29,606 nucleotides of DNA, from positions 1 through 29,606 of the IMG/VR virus record IMGVR_UViG_3300047678_000820, one strand, 5' to 3'. The position numbers and the translations under genes were made by a program. Positions 5,337 to 11,606 of the stretch are shown in pieces. Under the pieces are notes generated by a model. That model was not told the origin of the DNA. It saw nothing but the letters and a program-made list of their open reading frames with translations, and did not search any database. Position 1 is the stretch's first letter; each line of letters begins with the position of its first letter. The DNA is from a virus.

Positions 5337-6722
5337 TCAAAACCTCCGTCTACAGATGCCTGCGTATTTCCAACTACCAGCCGTCAAAACCGAGCCCGTG
5401 CCCGTGGTGGGGTTGGTAACATAGAAAGTTGTGCTGGTTGATGCAACGGCAAAGGAAAAAGTGTTCCTTCCAATGCGCGGTTGCAGGTTGGCAGCATTTG
5501 TAGCGGGATATGTGATGCGTAAGATTGTTTGCTCTCCGACCACAAAGCCTGCGTCGTTCGTTGTGCATTCGGCCAGAAAGTCAATGCCCTCAATAAAATT
5601 AGTTCCAATGTTGTGATTAAAAGAAACGACAGCCCCGTTCCCCGGCAGCGTTGCCGTCCACGCGGAGGTGTAGCGCCCCATCAGGGCATACCAGGTGATC
5701 GCCGTCACAACGCCGCCAGCGACCGTGACTTCTCCTACGAACACCCGGTAGGTCTGCGATGCGGTCGAACCGTTGCCCACCTTCATCGTCATCTCTTGGA
5801 TGTTGAAGGTGTGCTGGTTGGCGGTGGTGCTGTAGGTGCCGCCCCACTGGTAGGTGGGCGCCAGCGTGGTGCTGCCGGTGGACGGGCTGCCGCCGTTGTA
5901 GTCCACGTACAGATACATCGTCCCGTTGGTGGACAGGCCGGTCCAGGACGGGTTGGTGATCTGGAACACCTGGTCCACGGCCCCGGAAGACCCGAAGCCA
6001 TTGGCGGCGGCCAGGGTGAGCGCCCCGCCCGTCTGCGTGACCGTGGTGCTGCCGGTGGATCCGCCGAAGCTGGGCAGGCCGTTGGAATCCACCGCGCCGT
6101 TCAGCACGGTCTGGCGCACCGGCACCGCCGTCGCGGTGCCGGCCGTCGGGTAGCCGATGGTCTTGAACGCGCTGCCGTCGCAGTAGATGAAGCCCGACGT
6201 CGGGCCCACCAGCACCTTGGTCGTGGCGCCGTCGATCTGCTCGCTCGCGTTCGGGTCGAGGGTGATCGTCACGCCGGACTCGACGCGGTAGCCGATCCAC
6301 CAGCCGTCGCCCAGCGTGGCGGCCGCCGTCAGCGTCTGCGTGAAGTTGGACGTGGCGACGATCGTCTTGCCGATGTCGGACAGGCCGAGGATCGTGTTGC
6401 TCGAGCGCGAGAGCATGAACGTCTCGTCGAGCGACCGGATCACCAGCCAGGCCGAATTCGCGGCATTGCGGCGTTTCAGCGTGTTGGTGGTGGTGTCGGC
6501 CCACAGTTGCCGCGCGTAGGTCGTCGCCGGCGCAGTGGCGCCGGAGCTCAGCGTGACGAGCGCCTGCAGCTCGCTGTTCAGATCCGAACGGAACGCCGCG
6601 CCCGCCTGGTTGGCGATGTTCTGGTCGCCCTGCAAAAAGCAGATGTGGCGCGCGATCGGCGTCAGCTCGCTCGGGAAGCGGTCGATGGCGAAACGGCGGC
6701 TGCGGCGGGTGCGGAAAGTCAT
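5337..6722 (-). CDS. Tail fibre / receptor-binding protein
   Basis: A 461-aa beta-rich protein placed after the tail-tip gene J, the usual position for the host-recognition fibre. The N-terminal 100 residues hold RRSRRFAIDRFPSEL and an ITR-like ATTYARQLWADTTTNTLKRR stretch. The middle (about 175-345) has the repeated Gly/Thr/Ser beta pattern of phage fibres, including LAPTYQWGGTYS, a HTFNIQEMTMKVGNGST element and VFVGEV, which I have seen in many phage fibres. The last 95 residues or so (nt 5337-5640) have visibly lower G+C than the rest, suggesting an exchanged receptor-binding tip. It starts at ATG 6722 behind AAGGAA. The C-terminus ends in CRRRF. Confidence 0.75.
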   Translation of the reverse strand: MTFRTRRSRRFAIDRFPSELTPIARHICFLQGDQNIANQAGAAFRSDLNSELQALVTLSSGATAPATTYARQLWADTTTNTLKRRNAANSAWLVIRSLDETFMLSRSSNTILGLSDIGKTIVATSNFTQTLTAAATLGDGWWIGYRVESGVTITLDPNASEQIDGATTKVLVGPTSGFIYCDGSAFKTIGYPTAGTATAVPVRQTVLNGAVDSNGLPSFGGSTGSTTVTQTGGALTLAAANGFGSSGAVDQVFQITNPSWTGLSTNGTMYLYVDYNGGSPSTGSTTLAPTYQWGGTYSTTANQHTFNIQEMTMKVGNGSTASQTYRVFVGEVTVAGGVVTAITWYALMGRYTSAWTATLPGNGAVVSFNHNIGTNFIEGIDFLAECTTNDAGFVVGEQTILRITYPATNAANLQPRIGRNTFSFAVASTSTTFYVTNPTTGTGSVLTAGSWKYAGICRRRF

Positions 6723-6746
6723 GGTGGATTCCTTCGGAGAGAGGCG

Positions 6747-6808
6747 AGGACTAAGGACTGAGGACTGAGGAAAACCCTCTTAGTCCTGAGTCCTTAGTCC
6801 TCAGTCCT
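6747..6808. repeat. Heptamer-repeat hairpin 1 (AGGACTR units)
   Basis: Tandem 7-base units AGGACTA/AGGACTG (6747-6770), a short AAAAC loop, then complementary units TTAGTCC/TGAGTCC/TCAGTCC (6775-6808). The two arms can pair over about 24 bases with roughly one mismatch per seven. It fills the gap between the 128-aa gene and the fibre gene. It resembles the second element at 7223-7291. Confidence 0.9.
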
Positions 6809-6812
6809 GCAA

Positions 6813-7199
6813 TTAATTGGCGTCGACGCTCTGCTGGTACTGCGCCATCCAGGACAGGGTGAGCGCGGGCAGCAGCACCTTCTGCTCCTGCAGCGCCTGG
6901 CACAGCGCGTGAAACGCCCGGTCGCTGGTGATCTCGGCCGGCGCGGTTTTCTGCCGCTTCGGCTCGATGGGCACCAGCACCTTGTTTTCGAGGCGGTAGG
7001 CGCCTGGGCGGTTATCGCAGTCGGGCGGCACCACCAGGTGCTCGTCCGTCACGGCGTCGGCGGCGATCTCCTTGACGCCCCAGAAGACGCCGTCGGCGTC
7101 GACGTCGGCCACGAAGACAGTGTTCGGCGTCTTGGCTTCCTCGGGCAGGGCCTCGATCGCCTCGGCGGCGGCTTCGGCGGCTTGCACTTGGTCGGTCAT
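6813..7199 (-). CDS. 128-aa protein between tail tip J and tail fibre
   Basis: Unrecognised, mostly acidic protein. The N-terminus is Ala/Glu-rich (MTDQVQAAEAAAEAIEALPE). The middle has TVFVADVDADGVFWGVKEI and a HLVVPPDCDNRPGAYRLE segment, and the C-terminus is a helical region that includes LLPALTLSWMAQYQQSV. The ATG at 7199 follows AAAGGAA. Small acidic proteins in this place are often fibre-associated chaperones or minor tail proteins (an inference from position only). The gene is bracketed on both sides by related heptamer-repeat hairpins, which sets it apart as a unit. Confidence 0.65.
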   Translation of the reverse strand: MTDQVQAAEAAAEAIEALPEEAKTPNTVFVADVDADGVFWGVKEIAADAVTDEHLVVPPDCDNRPGAYRLENKVLVPIEPKRQKTAPAEITSDRAFHALCQALQEQKVLLPALTLSWMAQYQQSVDAN

Positions 7200-7222
7200 G
7201 GCGTTTCCTTTGGAAAGTTGCG

Positions 7223-7291
7223 AGGACTAAGGACTAAGGACTGAGGCACTTCCTCTTAGTCCTGAGTCCTGAGTCCTCAGTCCTCAGTCCT
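7223..7291. repeat. Heptamer-repeat hairpin 2 (AGGACTR units)
   Basis: Left arm of three AGGACTA/AGGACTG units plus AGG (7223-7246), loop CACT, then a right arm of five complementary AGTCCTN units (7251-7291). It lies between the J stop (7298) and the 128-aa gene. It is a second, longer copy of the element at 6747-6808. Confidence 0.9.
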
Positions 7292-7297
7292 TGTTTT

Positions 7298-10200
7298 CTA
7301 CACAGGCACCTTCGCATCGACGCGCAGCGTGTCGACGGCGATGTTGTGGGTGGCCTGCGCGCTTGCCAGGTCGAGCCGGAAGCGCGCCGCGCGGCAGGTG
7401 AAGTCCGCCACGAAAAACGGCGCGTAAGGGCCCCATGTCGGCGCGCCGGCCGGATCGTCGGGCGTGGTGCTGATGTAGAGCACCGCATTGACGTCGTCGA
7501 CGCTGGAGCCGTCGAACAGGCCCCAGTCGTCCACGTTGTCCAGACGCGAGTCGATCAGATCGCCGGTGTCGAAGCCCGTGGAGCGGATGTCCGCCTCGAA
7601 GCGCCGGGTGGTAGAGCTCAACAGGTCGAGGTAGGTGTCGAACGCATAGCTGCCCGTCGCCGAGACGCCGCCCAGCGCGTCGATGAAGGGCCAGTCGTCC
7701 ACCAGCGCGGCCATGCTGTCCACCGTCGCCCTGCTGTCCAGCTGGATCGAGGTGCCGACCAGCGCCACGTTGGACTTGGCGCCGGTGAACGTCGGGTGCT
7801 GGATGCTCGATCCCACCGTGGTGAAGCCCGTCACCAGGCCTTCGGTCGCCACAAAGCTCACGGCGTTGAGCGAGTAGTTGCCGGAACTGTCCACGGCCTT
7901 CGCCATGTAAGTGCCGGTCATCAGCGGCACGAAGCCCTGCACGTCGGAGCCCGTGAACTCGCCGACGATGATGCCGTCGCTCCAGACGACGCCCGTCGTG
8001 TTCGGGTTGTGGCGGATCACGATCGTGCCGCCCACCTGCACGTCGAGATCCGCCGCCGGCGTCCACTGCGCCAGGCCGAACCCGGCCGACTTGATGACGC
8101 TGAAGCCGCCGACGTCCGCCGGCGGCGCGGTCTTGCCGTAGATCTCCTGCGTAAGCGTCGCGGCCACGCTGGGAATGCCCAGCGCGTTGAGCTGCTTGAC
8201 CGAGAACGTGTACAGGTCCGGCAGCAGGTCGTCGATCTCGATGGTCTGCGACACCAGCTCGGGCAGCGTCACCCAGTTGCCCACGCTGCCGCGGTAAGCC
8301 ACCACGTAGCGGCCGGTGGTGCCCTCCCAGGACAGCGTCACCCGTGTGCCCACGGCGTTGACGCCGGCAAGGCAGAGCTGCTCGCTCGCGCTCAGGTTCG
8401 TCGGCGGATCGGGCATGGCGCCGATCGTCGACGTCGTCGGGATCTCCAGCACCAGGTCCTGCTCGACCGCGTCGAACTTGGACTCGTTGTAGGCGAGCGC
8501 CATCACCTGCAGCGTGGACTTGTCGGGCTGGGTGACCGCGATCACGCGCCACACTTCCGGCTCGAGCGTGGATGCGGCCAGGATCCAGGCCGCCTGCGCG
8601 GACGGCGCCACACTGAACGGCGTGACCGGGTTGAGCACGCTCGTGCTGCCGGGTGCGTTGCCGAGATCCCGCGATTGCAGCGTGCCGTCGGCCGCCATCA
8701 CGTACAGCGTGTAGACCGGGCCGAGCGTGATCGTCACGGGCGAGTCGATCGTCACGGCCGTGGTGGTGGCGCTCACCACGCGGCCGCCGACGCGGGAGCC
8801 GGACCGGATCGGGTCCGACGTCTTGATGATGGCCCCCGGATACACCAGGATGCCCTCGAGCCCCGTGCGGAAGGTGACGGTCTCCGTCTCCATCCGCTCG
8901 CTGTAGAGCATCCAGCGGCCGACCCGGTGCGCCTGACCGCGGGACGTGCAGCCAAACGCCAGCGTCTCGCCCTGCACCACGCCGTAGCGGGCGATCCCGG
9001 CCAGATCCTCGACGTACTCGACCTTCTGCTGGTAAGCGTCCGACGGATCGTTCCAGGCCACGATCGCGACCGTGTGGCGGGTGTTCCGGGCGCTGCCCTC
9101 GTACTTGAACTGCCCGTCGATCACGTTGGAGCGGTTGAACAGCATTACCGCATCGGACGGCCGGTCCTGCACGGCCGTGATCGCGCCCGAGCTCCAGTAC
9201 GCCATGCCCCGGAAGATCGAGGCCATGTTGTTGATGACGGTGTAGGCCTCGGCGCGCTCCTGCAGATACAGGTTGCAGGTGAACCGCGGCTCCAGGCCGC
9301 CGAAGCCATCGCTGACCAGCTCGTCGCAATACTGGGCGATTTCGTAGAGCGACCACTTGTCGATCTGCGACGCATCGACGAACGCGCCGAGGCCGTAGCG
9401 CTCCGACGTCAGCATGTCGTAGAAGCACCACGCCGGATTGTCCGTCCAGGCGATCTGGAAGTTGCCGTCCCATACGCCCGTGTAGACGCGCGTCGTGGCG
9501 TTGTAATTGCTCGGCACCTGCACCCGCATGCCGCGGATGTGAAACGCGCGCGACGGAATGCCGCTGAACTGCTGCGCGTCGACCTGCGTGGCCACGATCG
9601 CCGAATTCGGAAACGTCAGCTTCTGATCGATGATCTCCGTGTAGCTGCTGAAGAACGTCCGGTTCACGACGTTCGTGGTCAGGCTGTCCGCCGTGATGCG
9701 CCGCACGCGGATATCCCACGGCGGACTGCCGGTCAGCTCCACCCGGTAGCTGCGGTTGTAGCGCGTGGTGGTTTTGCCGGCGATCGTGTCGAGGACCTGC
9801 TGCACGAACCCGCCGCCGTTCGACTGCAGGTCGATCGCGATCTGCACCGACGTGCCGGACAAGTCCCCGGTGGTCACGTTGGCGCTGGTCAGCTGCGGAA
9901 TCGCCAGCGTGATCCGCGCCGCGTTGACGTTGACGTTGGTGATCTGGCGCGTGACCGACAGCGCCTTGGTCACCTCGACGCCGACCGCCACCTCATTCTG
10001 CGACGAGGGAAAGCCCTCGATGTAGGTCTGGCCCTGCGTGCCGGTGCGGGAGTCCACCACGACGCCGGTGAAGTTGAACGAGCCGTCGCCGTTCTGCAGC
10101 GGCACGCCGTCGAAATATACCGACTGCAGACCGTTGACGAGTCCCTGGATCTCACCTTCCGACACGAGGTCCAGCACCGTCGCGTACTGGCGCGAGCGCA

Positions 10201-10324
10201 GGCTGTCCGGGGCCTCCACCGGCGCGCGCGTGGAGCCGCCGCTGTTGCTGCCGCCCTTGCCGCCGGCGCCCCGCACGGCGGCCGCCACCGCGAGCGGCAG
10301 CTTCTTCTTGCGCGGAATCCTCAC
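7298..10324 (-). CDS. J: Tail tip / host specificity protein J
   Basis: A 1008-aa central tail-tip protein of the lambda J type, which closes the distal tail and helps contact the receptor. It begins with a GTG at 10324 overlapping the gpI stop (GTGA), then a basic start and a Gly/Ser linker. A conserved J domain begins near residue 38 (APDSLRSRQYATVLDLVSEG). The middle carries the tip core with VERTICAL order typical of the family: DGVPLQNGDG, WDIRVRRIT, SEIG-type strands and YWSSGAITAVQDRP. A fibronectin type III-like segment spans about 636-725 and a second about 730-815. The C-terminus (about 860-1008) is a beta-rich domain likely to meet the fibre. It ends six bases before a heptamer-repeat hairpin. 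Confidence 0.92.
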   Translation of the reverse strand: MRIPRKKKLPLAVAAAVRGAGGKGGSNSGGSTRAPVEAPDSLRSRQYATVLDLVSEGEIQGLVNGLQSVYFDGVPLQNGDGSFNFTGVVVDSRTGTQGQTYIEGFPSSQNEVAVGVEVTKALSVTRQITNVNVNAARITLAIPQLTSANVTTGDLSGTSVQIAIDLQSNGGGFVQQVLDTIAGKTTTRYNRSYRVELTGSPPWDIRVRRITADSLTTNVVNRTFFSSYTEIIDQKLTFPNSAIVATQVDAQQFSGIPSRAFHIRGMRVQVPSNYNATTRVYTGVWDGNFQIAWTDNPAWCFYDMLTSERYGLGAFVDASQIDKWSLYEIAQYCDELVSDGFGGLEPRFTCNLYLQERAEAYTVINNMASIFRGMAYWSSGAITAVQDRPSDAVMLFNRSNVIDGQFKYEGSARNTRHTVAIVAWNDPSDAYQQKVEYVEDLAGIARYGVVQGETLAFGCTSRGQAHRVGRWMLYSERMETETVTFRTGLEGILVYPGAIIKTSDPIRSGSRVGGRVVSATTTAVTIDSPVTITLGPVYTLYVMAADGTLQSRDLGNAPGSTSVLNPVTPFSVAPSAQAAWILAASTLEPEVWRVIAVTQPDKSTLQVMALAYNESKFDAVEQDLVLEIPTTSTIGAMPDPPTNLSASEQLCLAGVNAVGTRVTLSWEGTTGRYVVAYRGSVGNWVTLPELVSQTIEIDDLLPDLYTFSVKQLNALGIPSVAATLTQEIYGKTAPPADVGGFSVIKSAGFGLAQWTPAADLDVQVGGTIVIRHNPNTTGVVWSDGIIVGEFTGSDVQGFVPLMTGTYMAKAVDSSGNYSLNAVSFVATEGLVTGFTTVGSSIQHPTFTGAKSNVALVGTSIQLDSRATVDSMAALVDDWPFIDALGGVSATGSYAFDTYLDLLSSTTRRFEADIRSTGFDTGDLIDSRLDNVDDWGLFDGSSVDDVNAVLYISTTPDDPAGAPTWGPYAPFFVADFTCRAARFRLDLASAQATHNIAVDTLRVDAKVPV

Positions 10325-10902
10325 GGCAGCGGTTCCGTCTGGATCCCGGCAGAGATCACCTGCGAGCCGACGCGCAGCTCGCCGTAGCAGATCGGCACGC
10401 AGTTGCCCTGCCCGCTGGTGTTGACCGCCCCGTTGAACGAATAGCTCGGGCGGTTGTTCGCGGCCTCGTTCTGCGACACCTTGGGCTTCGGCGCCGAGAA
10501 CAGCAGCTCCGAGACGCCGCTGAACAGCAGGCTCGCGCCCATGCTCATGAGCGGCGTGCCGGCACCGAAGCCGAAGTAACTCAGGATCGCGCCGACGATG
10601 ATCAACACGATGCCGGCGATGATCTTGAACACCGCGCCGCCGCCGGCGATCACGGGCACGATGCGGATCACCTTGCGGCCCGTGCGCAGCTGCAGATCGT
10701 CCACCGCCAGGCCTTCGGCGCCGGCGAACACCTTGTAACCGGGCTCGGAGTAGCGCTGCAGGTGGTCGCGGAAGCCCCGGATCTGGGAGCACAGCGCCCG
10801 CAGGGCCTGCGCCGGCGAATGGACGGCGAAGCGGTGGACGCGGCCGAACTTGATGCCCAGTACGCCGTGCAGCCGGATCTCCGTCAGGGTTGCGGTGTGC
10901 AT
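10321..10902 (-). CDS. I: Tail assembly protein I
   Basis: A 193-aa homologue of lambda gpI, needed for tail-tip assembly. It starts with MHTATLTEIRLHGVLG and has a ubiquitin-like beta-grasp N-terminal half. A hydrophobic, glycine-rich segment follows (about 100-130, with FKIIAGIVLIIVGAILSYFG), then a C-terminal NRPSYSFNGAVNTSGQGN and PICYGELRVGS stretch typical of the family. The start at 10902 overlaps the end of gpK by 19 bases and the stop overlaps the J start. Confidence 0.85.
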   Translation of the reverse strand: MHTATLTEIRLHGVLGIKFGRVHRFAVHSPAQALRALCSQIRGFRDHLQRYSEPGYKVFAGAEGLAVDDLQLRTGRKVIRIVPVIAGGGAVFKIIAGIVLIIVGAILSYFGFGAGTPLMSMGASLLFSGVSELLFSAPKPKVSQNEAANNRPSYSFNGAVNTSGQGNCVPICYGELRVGSQVISAGIQTEPLP

Positions 10903-11606
10903 AGCGTCTGATGCCGCGCGGCAAAACGAAGGCACTTCGCCCAGTGGCCGCCGAAGACGGCCCGGCGCGACAGGGTGCGCATCGGGTGGTGCAGCATCAC
11001 GCCCTCGCCCAGGTAGAGCGCGCAATGGTTCGGCACGTCCGCGCCGATCTGCATGACGAGCAGGTCATACTTCCGCAGTTCCCCGGACACCTTCACGAAC
11101 CCGGCCGCGGCCAGGTGCTGCTCGAAGAGGTCCTCGCCGCCGCGGTCCCAGCCTTCGCGCCGCGGGAAGTCCGGCAGCGTCAGCCCCACCTCTTCCATCA
11201 GCGCATCGCGCACCAGCGCCCAGCAGTCGTGCACCCCGTGCACGAAGGCGCGGCCCAGCAGCGGCGCGCGGTAGCCGGTGGCCTCGAACATGAAGTGACT
11301 GCCGACCGGATGGTTCACGATCAGCCAGGGCAGTCCGGACGCCTCGCAGCCGGCCTTGTCCGCCGGCGACGGGATCGGCGGGATCCCGACGTGCGAGTGC
11401 GCGATCGCCACGATCCGGCCGGCGTCTTCGGCGGCCGCGAAGTCCAGCCCGTGGATCTCGAACTGCTGGCCGTCCTGGGCGACGTTGCGGCAGGCGTAGT
11501 ACTGCTGCGCGCCCTCGACGTCGACGATGACACCGCAGCACTCGCGCGGCGCTTCGCGGGCGGCGTGCGCGAGCACGGCGGCCAGCGTGGCGGGTTGCAG
11601 GTTCAT
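10884..11606 (-). CDS. K: Tail tip peptidase K (JAMM plus NlpC/P60)
   Basis: A 240-aa lambda gpK homologue with two enzymatic domains. The N-terminal JAB/MPN domain has Glu22 (APRECCG) and the HxHx7SxxD zinc motif at 70-83 (HSHVGIPPIPSPAD). The C-terminal NlpC/P60 domain has a catalytic Cys128 (HDCWALVRD) and a His at 194 (NHCALYLGEG). These domains are thought to act in tail assembly and in local cell-wall digestion during DNA entry. All key residues are present. The ATG at 11606 overlaps the gpL stop (ATGA). Confidence 0.92.
   Translation of the reverse strand: MNLQPATLAAVLAHAAREAPRECCGVIVDVEGAQQYYACRNVAQDGQQFEIHGLDFAAAEDAGRIVAIAHSHVGIPPIPSPADKAGCEASGLPWLIVNHPVGSHFMFEATGYRAPLLGRAFVHGVHDCWALVRDALMEEVGLTLPDFPRREGWDRGGEDLFEQHLAAAGFVKVSGELRKYDLLVMQIGADVPNHCALYLGEGVMLHHPMRTLSRRAVFGGHWAKCLRFAARHQTLCTPQP

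Follow-up and report, generated by a model that had tools for sequence, protein, structure and literature searches.

Two hairpins built from tandem copies of a seven-nucleotide unit, AGGACTN, flank a single small gene in the late operon of the phage studied here. We think it probable (roughly 0.6) that these hairpins derive from one host-type AGGACTN hairpin that was captured by the phage lineage and then duplicated and that, if they are functional, they act as hairpins in the mRNA that do not terminate transcription.

Two heptamer-repeat hairpins flank one gene of the late operon

The DNA analysed, referred to here as the window, is a 29.6-kb virus record (29,606 nucleotides) whose minus strand encodes a lambda-like late module with terminase, portal, tail tube, NlpC/P60 and J genes. 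The late operon runs from J (7298..10924, minus strand; a tail tip protein, phrog_31, PF24801, PF13550) through a 128-aa ORF (6813..7199, minus strand, ending with its own TAA stop codon at 6813-6815) to the gene for a tail fibre-like protein (5337..6722, minus strand). The 128-aa protein had no family in Pfam or PHROG and no relative in IMG/VR, and its structure model (mean pLDDT 44) was too poor for a structure search.

Hairpin E1 (6747..6808, minus strand) lies with the stop codon of the 128-aa gene 4 nt away on one side and the ribosome site of the fibre gene on the other, and hairpin E2 (7223..7291, minus strand) begins 6 nt past the J stop codon (TAG, 7298-7300) and ends ahead of the ribosome site of the 128-aa gene. 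Read on the plus strand, the first arm of E1 consists of three units (AGGACT three times, joined by A and then by G), which are followed by a short loop, GAGGAAAACCCTCTT, and by an inverted array of four units (AGTCCT four times, joined by G, T and C in that order). E2 likewise has three AGGACT units on the plus strand, joined by A in both places, then a loop and an inverted array of five AGTCCT units. On the coding strand the array that stands behind both stop codons is AGGACT, and a free AAGGAA ribosome site is left beyond the end of each hairpin. An earlier reading of the DNA from the sequence alone (the sequence-only reading) had described paired heptamer hairpins at 6747-7291, on either side of a single gene located between J and the fibre. 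The hairpins are real, they lie at that location and they enclose that one gene, with two refinements: the unit is best given as AGGACTN, since its seventh base in E1 and E2 can be A, G or C, and the hairpins form part of an 80-nt direct repeat.

Within the window this arrangement is confined to the two hairpins. When up to one mismatch is allowed, the 13-mer AGGACTRAGGACT occurs 11 times, each time in E1 or E2, against an expectation of 0.06 (100 shuffles, the largest count being 1), and 7 is the sole lag among 4-11 with runs that reach 18/21 matches or more, at E1 and E2 only. Folding of the sense (minus) strand gave long stems with energies of -43.8 and -45.1 kcal/mol (z ~ -5), and 0 of 200 shuffles were as good. 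An Rfam search of E1 and E2 returned no family at the curated threshold; the weak matches, to microRNA-precursor models and one TUC338 model, were all far under their thresholds.

AGGACTN arrays are present in other viruses and in many bacteria

Stretches with three AGGACTR units numbered 33 in IMG/VR and at least 119 in bacterial genomes from many phyla, so the objection that no similar arrays might exist elsewhere, which the sequence-only reading had raised against itself, falls away. Some of the viral arrays adjoin genes for tail components; in L026 the neighbour is a tail sheath gene, and in L021 and L024 the array is close to tail genes. No tight AGGACTN hairpin was found in other viruses at exact match, and looser ones are present in L009, L010 and L018. 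Among bacteria, the Blastocatellia genome G007 had 1,238 matches (compared with 7 for a reversed control), G008 had 98 (compared with 0 for the reversed pattern), and the Burkholderiales MAGs G005 and G590 had 19 and 48, respectively. Among 274 genomes sampled at random from one class, AGGACTN arrays were no commoner than the reversed control, and in IMG/VR the control was the commoner of the two (69 versus 33 stretches), which argues that AGGACTN itself has no special meaning and rules it out as a universal or specially enriched heptamer. Thus, AGGACTN is one of many heptamers and not a universal signal. The exact array strings did not occur in the literature searched.

According to mechanical gene calls, on which all of the placement counts given here rest, 89 of 127 arrays in the genome loci are intergenic, compared with 11% of random positions (with edge cases, p ~1e-56), and close pairs of arrays are convergent in 36 cases and divergent in 2 (p 5e-9). 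An array starts at a median of 13 nt past the stop codon of a same-strand gene and ~105 nt ahead of the next start, with the distance to the stop being partly biased because the AGGACT strand of the repeat itself carries stop codons, so that the ends of same-strand ORFs are pulled toward the arrays. In the viral set, 19/33 arrays lie within called ORFs.

For G005 and G590, which belong to one Burkholderiales genus, 36 arrays were viewed in context; 25 are at most 25 nt from a stop codon, 21 form hairpins, and 17 occupy the entire junction between two genes. The design found in the phage recurs between co-directional genes at L320, L334, L336 and L343. At L346 the array is between convergent genes and the stop codon leads into it as TAA-AAAC-AGGACTG, which may be compared with TAG-AAAACA-AGGACTG after J in the phage. 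(Note that a long aroA-like ORF contains a three-unit AGTCCTC array at two loci, L332 1539-1559 and L344 1530-1550; the array is conserved between G590 and G005 and is apparently translated.)

The hairpins match a published class of heptamer repeats

E1 and E2 match a class of intergenic heptamer repeats described in the literature, which includes GGGAATC, GGGGATT and TAACTGA, in three respects: they consist of a tandem 7-nt unit present in at least two copies with 7 as the best period, they lie between genes, and they show the convergent inverted pairing of the Xanthomonas type. As to the dispersal in many copies that also marks this class, the 29.6-kb phage record holds two copies of the element only, and some bacteria carry many AGGACTN arrays. 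The GGGAATC arrays of Xanthomonas are intergenic and comprise about four copies of a 7-nt unit with variable bases, at a mean of 28 nt from the upstream ORF versus 160 nt to the next; there are 70-75 convergent inverted pairs per genome, and array length varies among relatives (Rehm et al. 2015, PMC4692102). The phage and other AGGACTN arrays resemble these in being intergenic, near the upstream ORF, convergently inverted and variable in length, whereas the phage arrays differ in their unit and in forming tight hairpins inside an operon, in two near-identical copies around one gene. The Xanthomonas repeats are also G-rich, G-quadruplex-forming and chromosomal, with plasmids being free of them, and Nostoc GGGGATT and the older cyanobacterial heptanucleotide repeats are intergenic heptamer arrays that form G-quadruplexes as well (PMC4692102). 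The phage elements share with those of Nostoc the intergenic heptamer arrays but not the unit, and they form tight hairpins. Note that AGGACTN contains no GGG, and so has no runs of three or more G; the quadruplex variant seen in Xanthomonas and Nostoc thus does not apply to the phage elements.

The TAACTGA repeats of marine Beggiatoaceae, which are intergenic and scattered over unrelated phyla, have stop codons in their reading frames, are positioned mostly just before start codons with no ribosome site, and are direct repeats with a single inverted case (MacGregor 2015, PMC4679880). The phage arrays are likewise intergenic heptamers with stop codons, but they are inverted, stand behind stop codons and leave the ribosome site free. 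More generally, an over-representation of heptamer repeats in bacteria has been noted (as cited by Rehm et al., PMC4692102), with neither the period nor a function explained. As far as we know, a heptamer-repeat element in a phage is new, although the type of element is already known and is poorly understood.

The period is mostly kept at two orthologous junctions where the heptamer changes

Two junctions were tracked through the genus of G005 (L357-L367 and L371-L381), a sample that calls for a systematic scan. At the first junction, 7 was the best period in 8 of 11 orthologous sequences, most of which had clear inverted arms, and the unit was AGGACTN in G005 and G590, GCGTGAR in G589, G593, G586 and G584, and CAGTGAA-like in G448. 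At the second junction the period was 7 in 5 of the 8 sequences scored, with AGGACTN, CAGGATY, GAACTCT or AACGTTC-like units. Together, 7-nt arrays were present in 13 of the 19 orthologous sequences scored, and the array-free sequences had no 7-nt period. The idea that each species has one heptamer was contradicted by ~200 kb from each of eight genomes, in which several heptamers and some octamers coexist within one genome.

The presence of a changed heptamer at the same junction might mean that it is the period and the fold, and not the sequence, that are maintained, either by selection or by a process that makes heptamers. Put broadly, hairpins of 7-nt units at gene ends would be kept at orthologous junctions while the heptamer is replaced, and phages would carry like elements between their tail genes; we offer this generalization tentatively and would at present bet against it. 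If it is true, the question "why seven?" becomes directly testable by comparative genomics, and the change of heptamer at orthologous junctions may matter more than the phage hairpins themselves.

Hairpins with octamer arms (such as GTGAACGG and GTGAAGGG) were also seen, at L438 13291-13386, at L441 10677-10761, 12217-12315 and 14470-14546, and at L413 19843-19907. Several of these have a GTAAC...GTTAC-like core that some of the heptamer hairpins in this genus also possess.

The main rival to our preferred explanation is that the arrays are neutral or selfish spacers, which would originate and lengthen through replication slippage, turn into hairpins through template switching, be tolerated behind stop codons because they are harmless there, and have no function in the phage. 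Consistent with this, the number of units differs between E1 and E2 as it does between G005 and G590 at orthologous junctions (L357/L359), the unit has been replaced wholesale at the same junction between related species, and no regulatory role was found for the arrays of Xanthomonas and Nostoc (Rehm et al., PMC4692102). However, neither the strong convergent bias of array pairs (36:2) nor the retention of 7-nt arrays at the same junctions across species (13/19) need arise neutrally, and on balance we consider purely neutral spacers to be unlikely, if a serious contender.

One element appears to have been captured and duplicated

Each hairpin is contained in one copy of an 80-nt direct repeat, with copy 1 (6729..6808, minus strand) consisting of E1 and copy 2 (7205..7284, minus strand) consisting of E2, each together with the leader that carries the AAGGAA ribosome site of the gene downstream. 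The two copies are 88% identical. E2 outreaches the repeat by one 7-nt unit (7285-7291) that E1 does not have. The 18-nt leaders of the two copies are identical at 14/18 positions and the remaining leaders in the window are unlike them, which argues that one element was duplicated and that the hairpins are not two independent expansions.

Relatives of J are encoded in 62 viral loci; J is ~36-55% identical in these distant relatives, and a closer phage relative was not found. Where the downstream sequence is readable, the J stop codon is mostly separated from the following start by -4 to 15 nt, free of hairpins, compared with gaps in the window of 98 nt (J to the 128-aa gene) and 90 nt (the 128-aa gene to the fibre gene). 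These compact, hairpin-free junctions argue that E1 and E2 are additions in this phage, and because no close relative was found, it is from the gaps in distant relatives that we infer capture and duplication. In the closest relatives the fibre gene directly follows J and encodes an N-terminal domain that matches residues 31-95 of the fibre-like protein of the window. (The latter protein starts ~30 residues upstream of the start of the relatives' fibre and so has an extra N-terminal stretch, residues 1-30, MTFRTRRSRRFAIDRFPSELTPIARHICFLQ.)

A search with TerL in the family of G005 gave a best match of 41%, and no host was therefore assigned. The tetranucleotide fit between the window and the Burkholderiales MAGs is only moderate (r 0.60-0.63), with a GC content of 67.8% versus 59-60%, which counts against our preferred explanation. 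We consider E1 and E2 likely to be intergenic heptamer repeats of a host type that were captured by the phage. The phage lineage would have acquired the heptamer element from a host-type genome, duplication would then have placed a second copy of the element, with the leader of the next gene, on the opposite side of the 128-aa gene, and slippage would add or remove 7-nt units of the arms, leaving E2 one unit longer than E1.

Alternatively, E2, the 128-aa gene and E1 could constitute an exchangeable cassette that was inserted between J and the fibre gene, the copies permitting its loss, swap or inversion by homologous recombination. Most J relatives have the N-terminal domain of the fibre straight after J with no small gene between them, as this alternative would have it, and inverted arms (57 nt at 79%) are present in addition to the direct repeat with its 88% identity. 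The longest exact stretches common to the two copies, however, are just ~16-19 nt, the repeats have no recombinase linked to them, variants with the cassette missing, exchanged or inverted were not found, and L160 has a small ORF in the same slot without hairpins (J, a 104-aa ORF at 7931-8245 and the fibre gene, with overlapping ends). The loss or inversion of 6813-7199 that the sequence-only reading had envisaged is thus possible by sequence, but no such variant came to light, and we regard a cassette as a rather improbable account of the hairpins. (Note that the 104-aa ORF of L160 looked by eye like a plausible homologue of the 128-aa protein; BLASTP found no similarity between the two, and the idea was dropped.)

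The hairpins may act in the late mRNA without terminating transcription

Under our preferred explanation of a captured and duplicated hairpin, each element would fold in the late mRNA into a stable, non-terminating hairpin, would hold successive reading frames apart, and would protect the coding part upstream of it at its 3' end. Translation and message stability would thereby be kept separate for J, the 128-aa protein and the fibre. That E1 and E2 are RNA structures that affect expression of the fibre is plausible; that such an effect has been selected is possible, at what we would put as somewhat under an even chance. With its two hairpins enclosing a single gene of a compact late operon, the phage offers a small and tractable case for studying effects on message stability and translation.

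Could the hairpins instead be terminators or attenuators of late-operon transcription? Strong stems right behind two stop codons would suit such a role, but the sense strand has no U-run after either stem and a terminator scan reported neither site, which rules out intrinsic terminators and bears out the earlier remark that the hairpins are unlike ordinary ones; moreover, E1 and E2 are internal to an operon, and the fibre encoded downstream of them is presumably required, so that we consider either role very unlikely.

REP and REPIN elements are fixed palindromes that are moved by RAYT and carry a conserved tag of the GTAG/CGTC type; they are intergenic, lie at the 3' ends of genes, and a role in message stability has been proposed for them. 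It is highly improbable that E1 and E2 are palindromes mobilized in this way by a RAYT transposase, even though the elements are palindromic, intergenic, dispersed and downstream of genes and Y1_Tnp genes are present in 8/10 genomes tested, because the arms vary by whole heptamers, unlike the fixed REP, because 19/20 Y1_Tnp loci lack heptamer arrays, whether AGGACTN or another, within ~1 kb, the sole exception being in G007, where arrays are everywhere, and because G410 has Y1_Tnp genes and no heptamer arrays in 200 kb. The broader suggestion that the hairpins are a mobile element retains indirect support from the hairpin-free relatives, the near-identical copies and the dispersed bacterial copies, but no transposase or recombinase was tied to the hairpins.

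G007 itself (Blastocatellia SSF51; for example, at L069, L078, L091 and L107) carries more than 1,200 array matches in 8.3 Mb, an extreme expansion of one heptamer, and its arrays frequently form convergent pairs ~50-120 nt apart.
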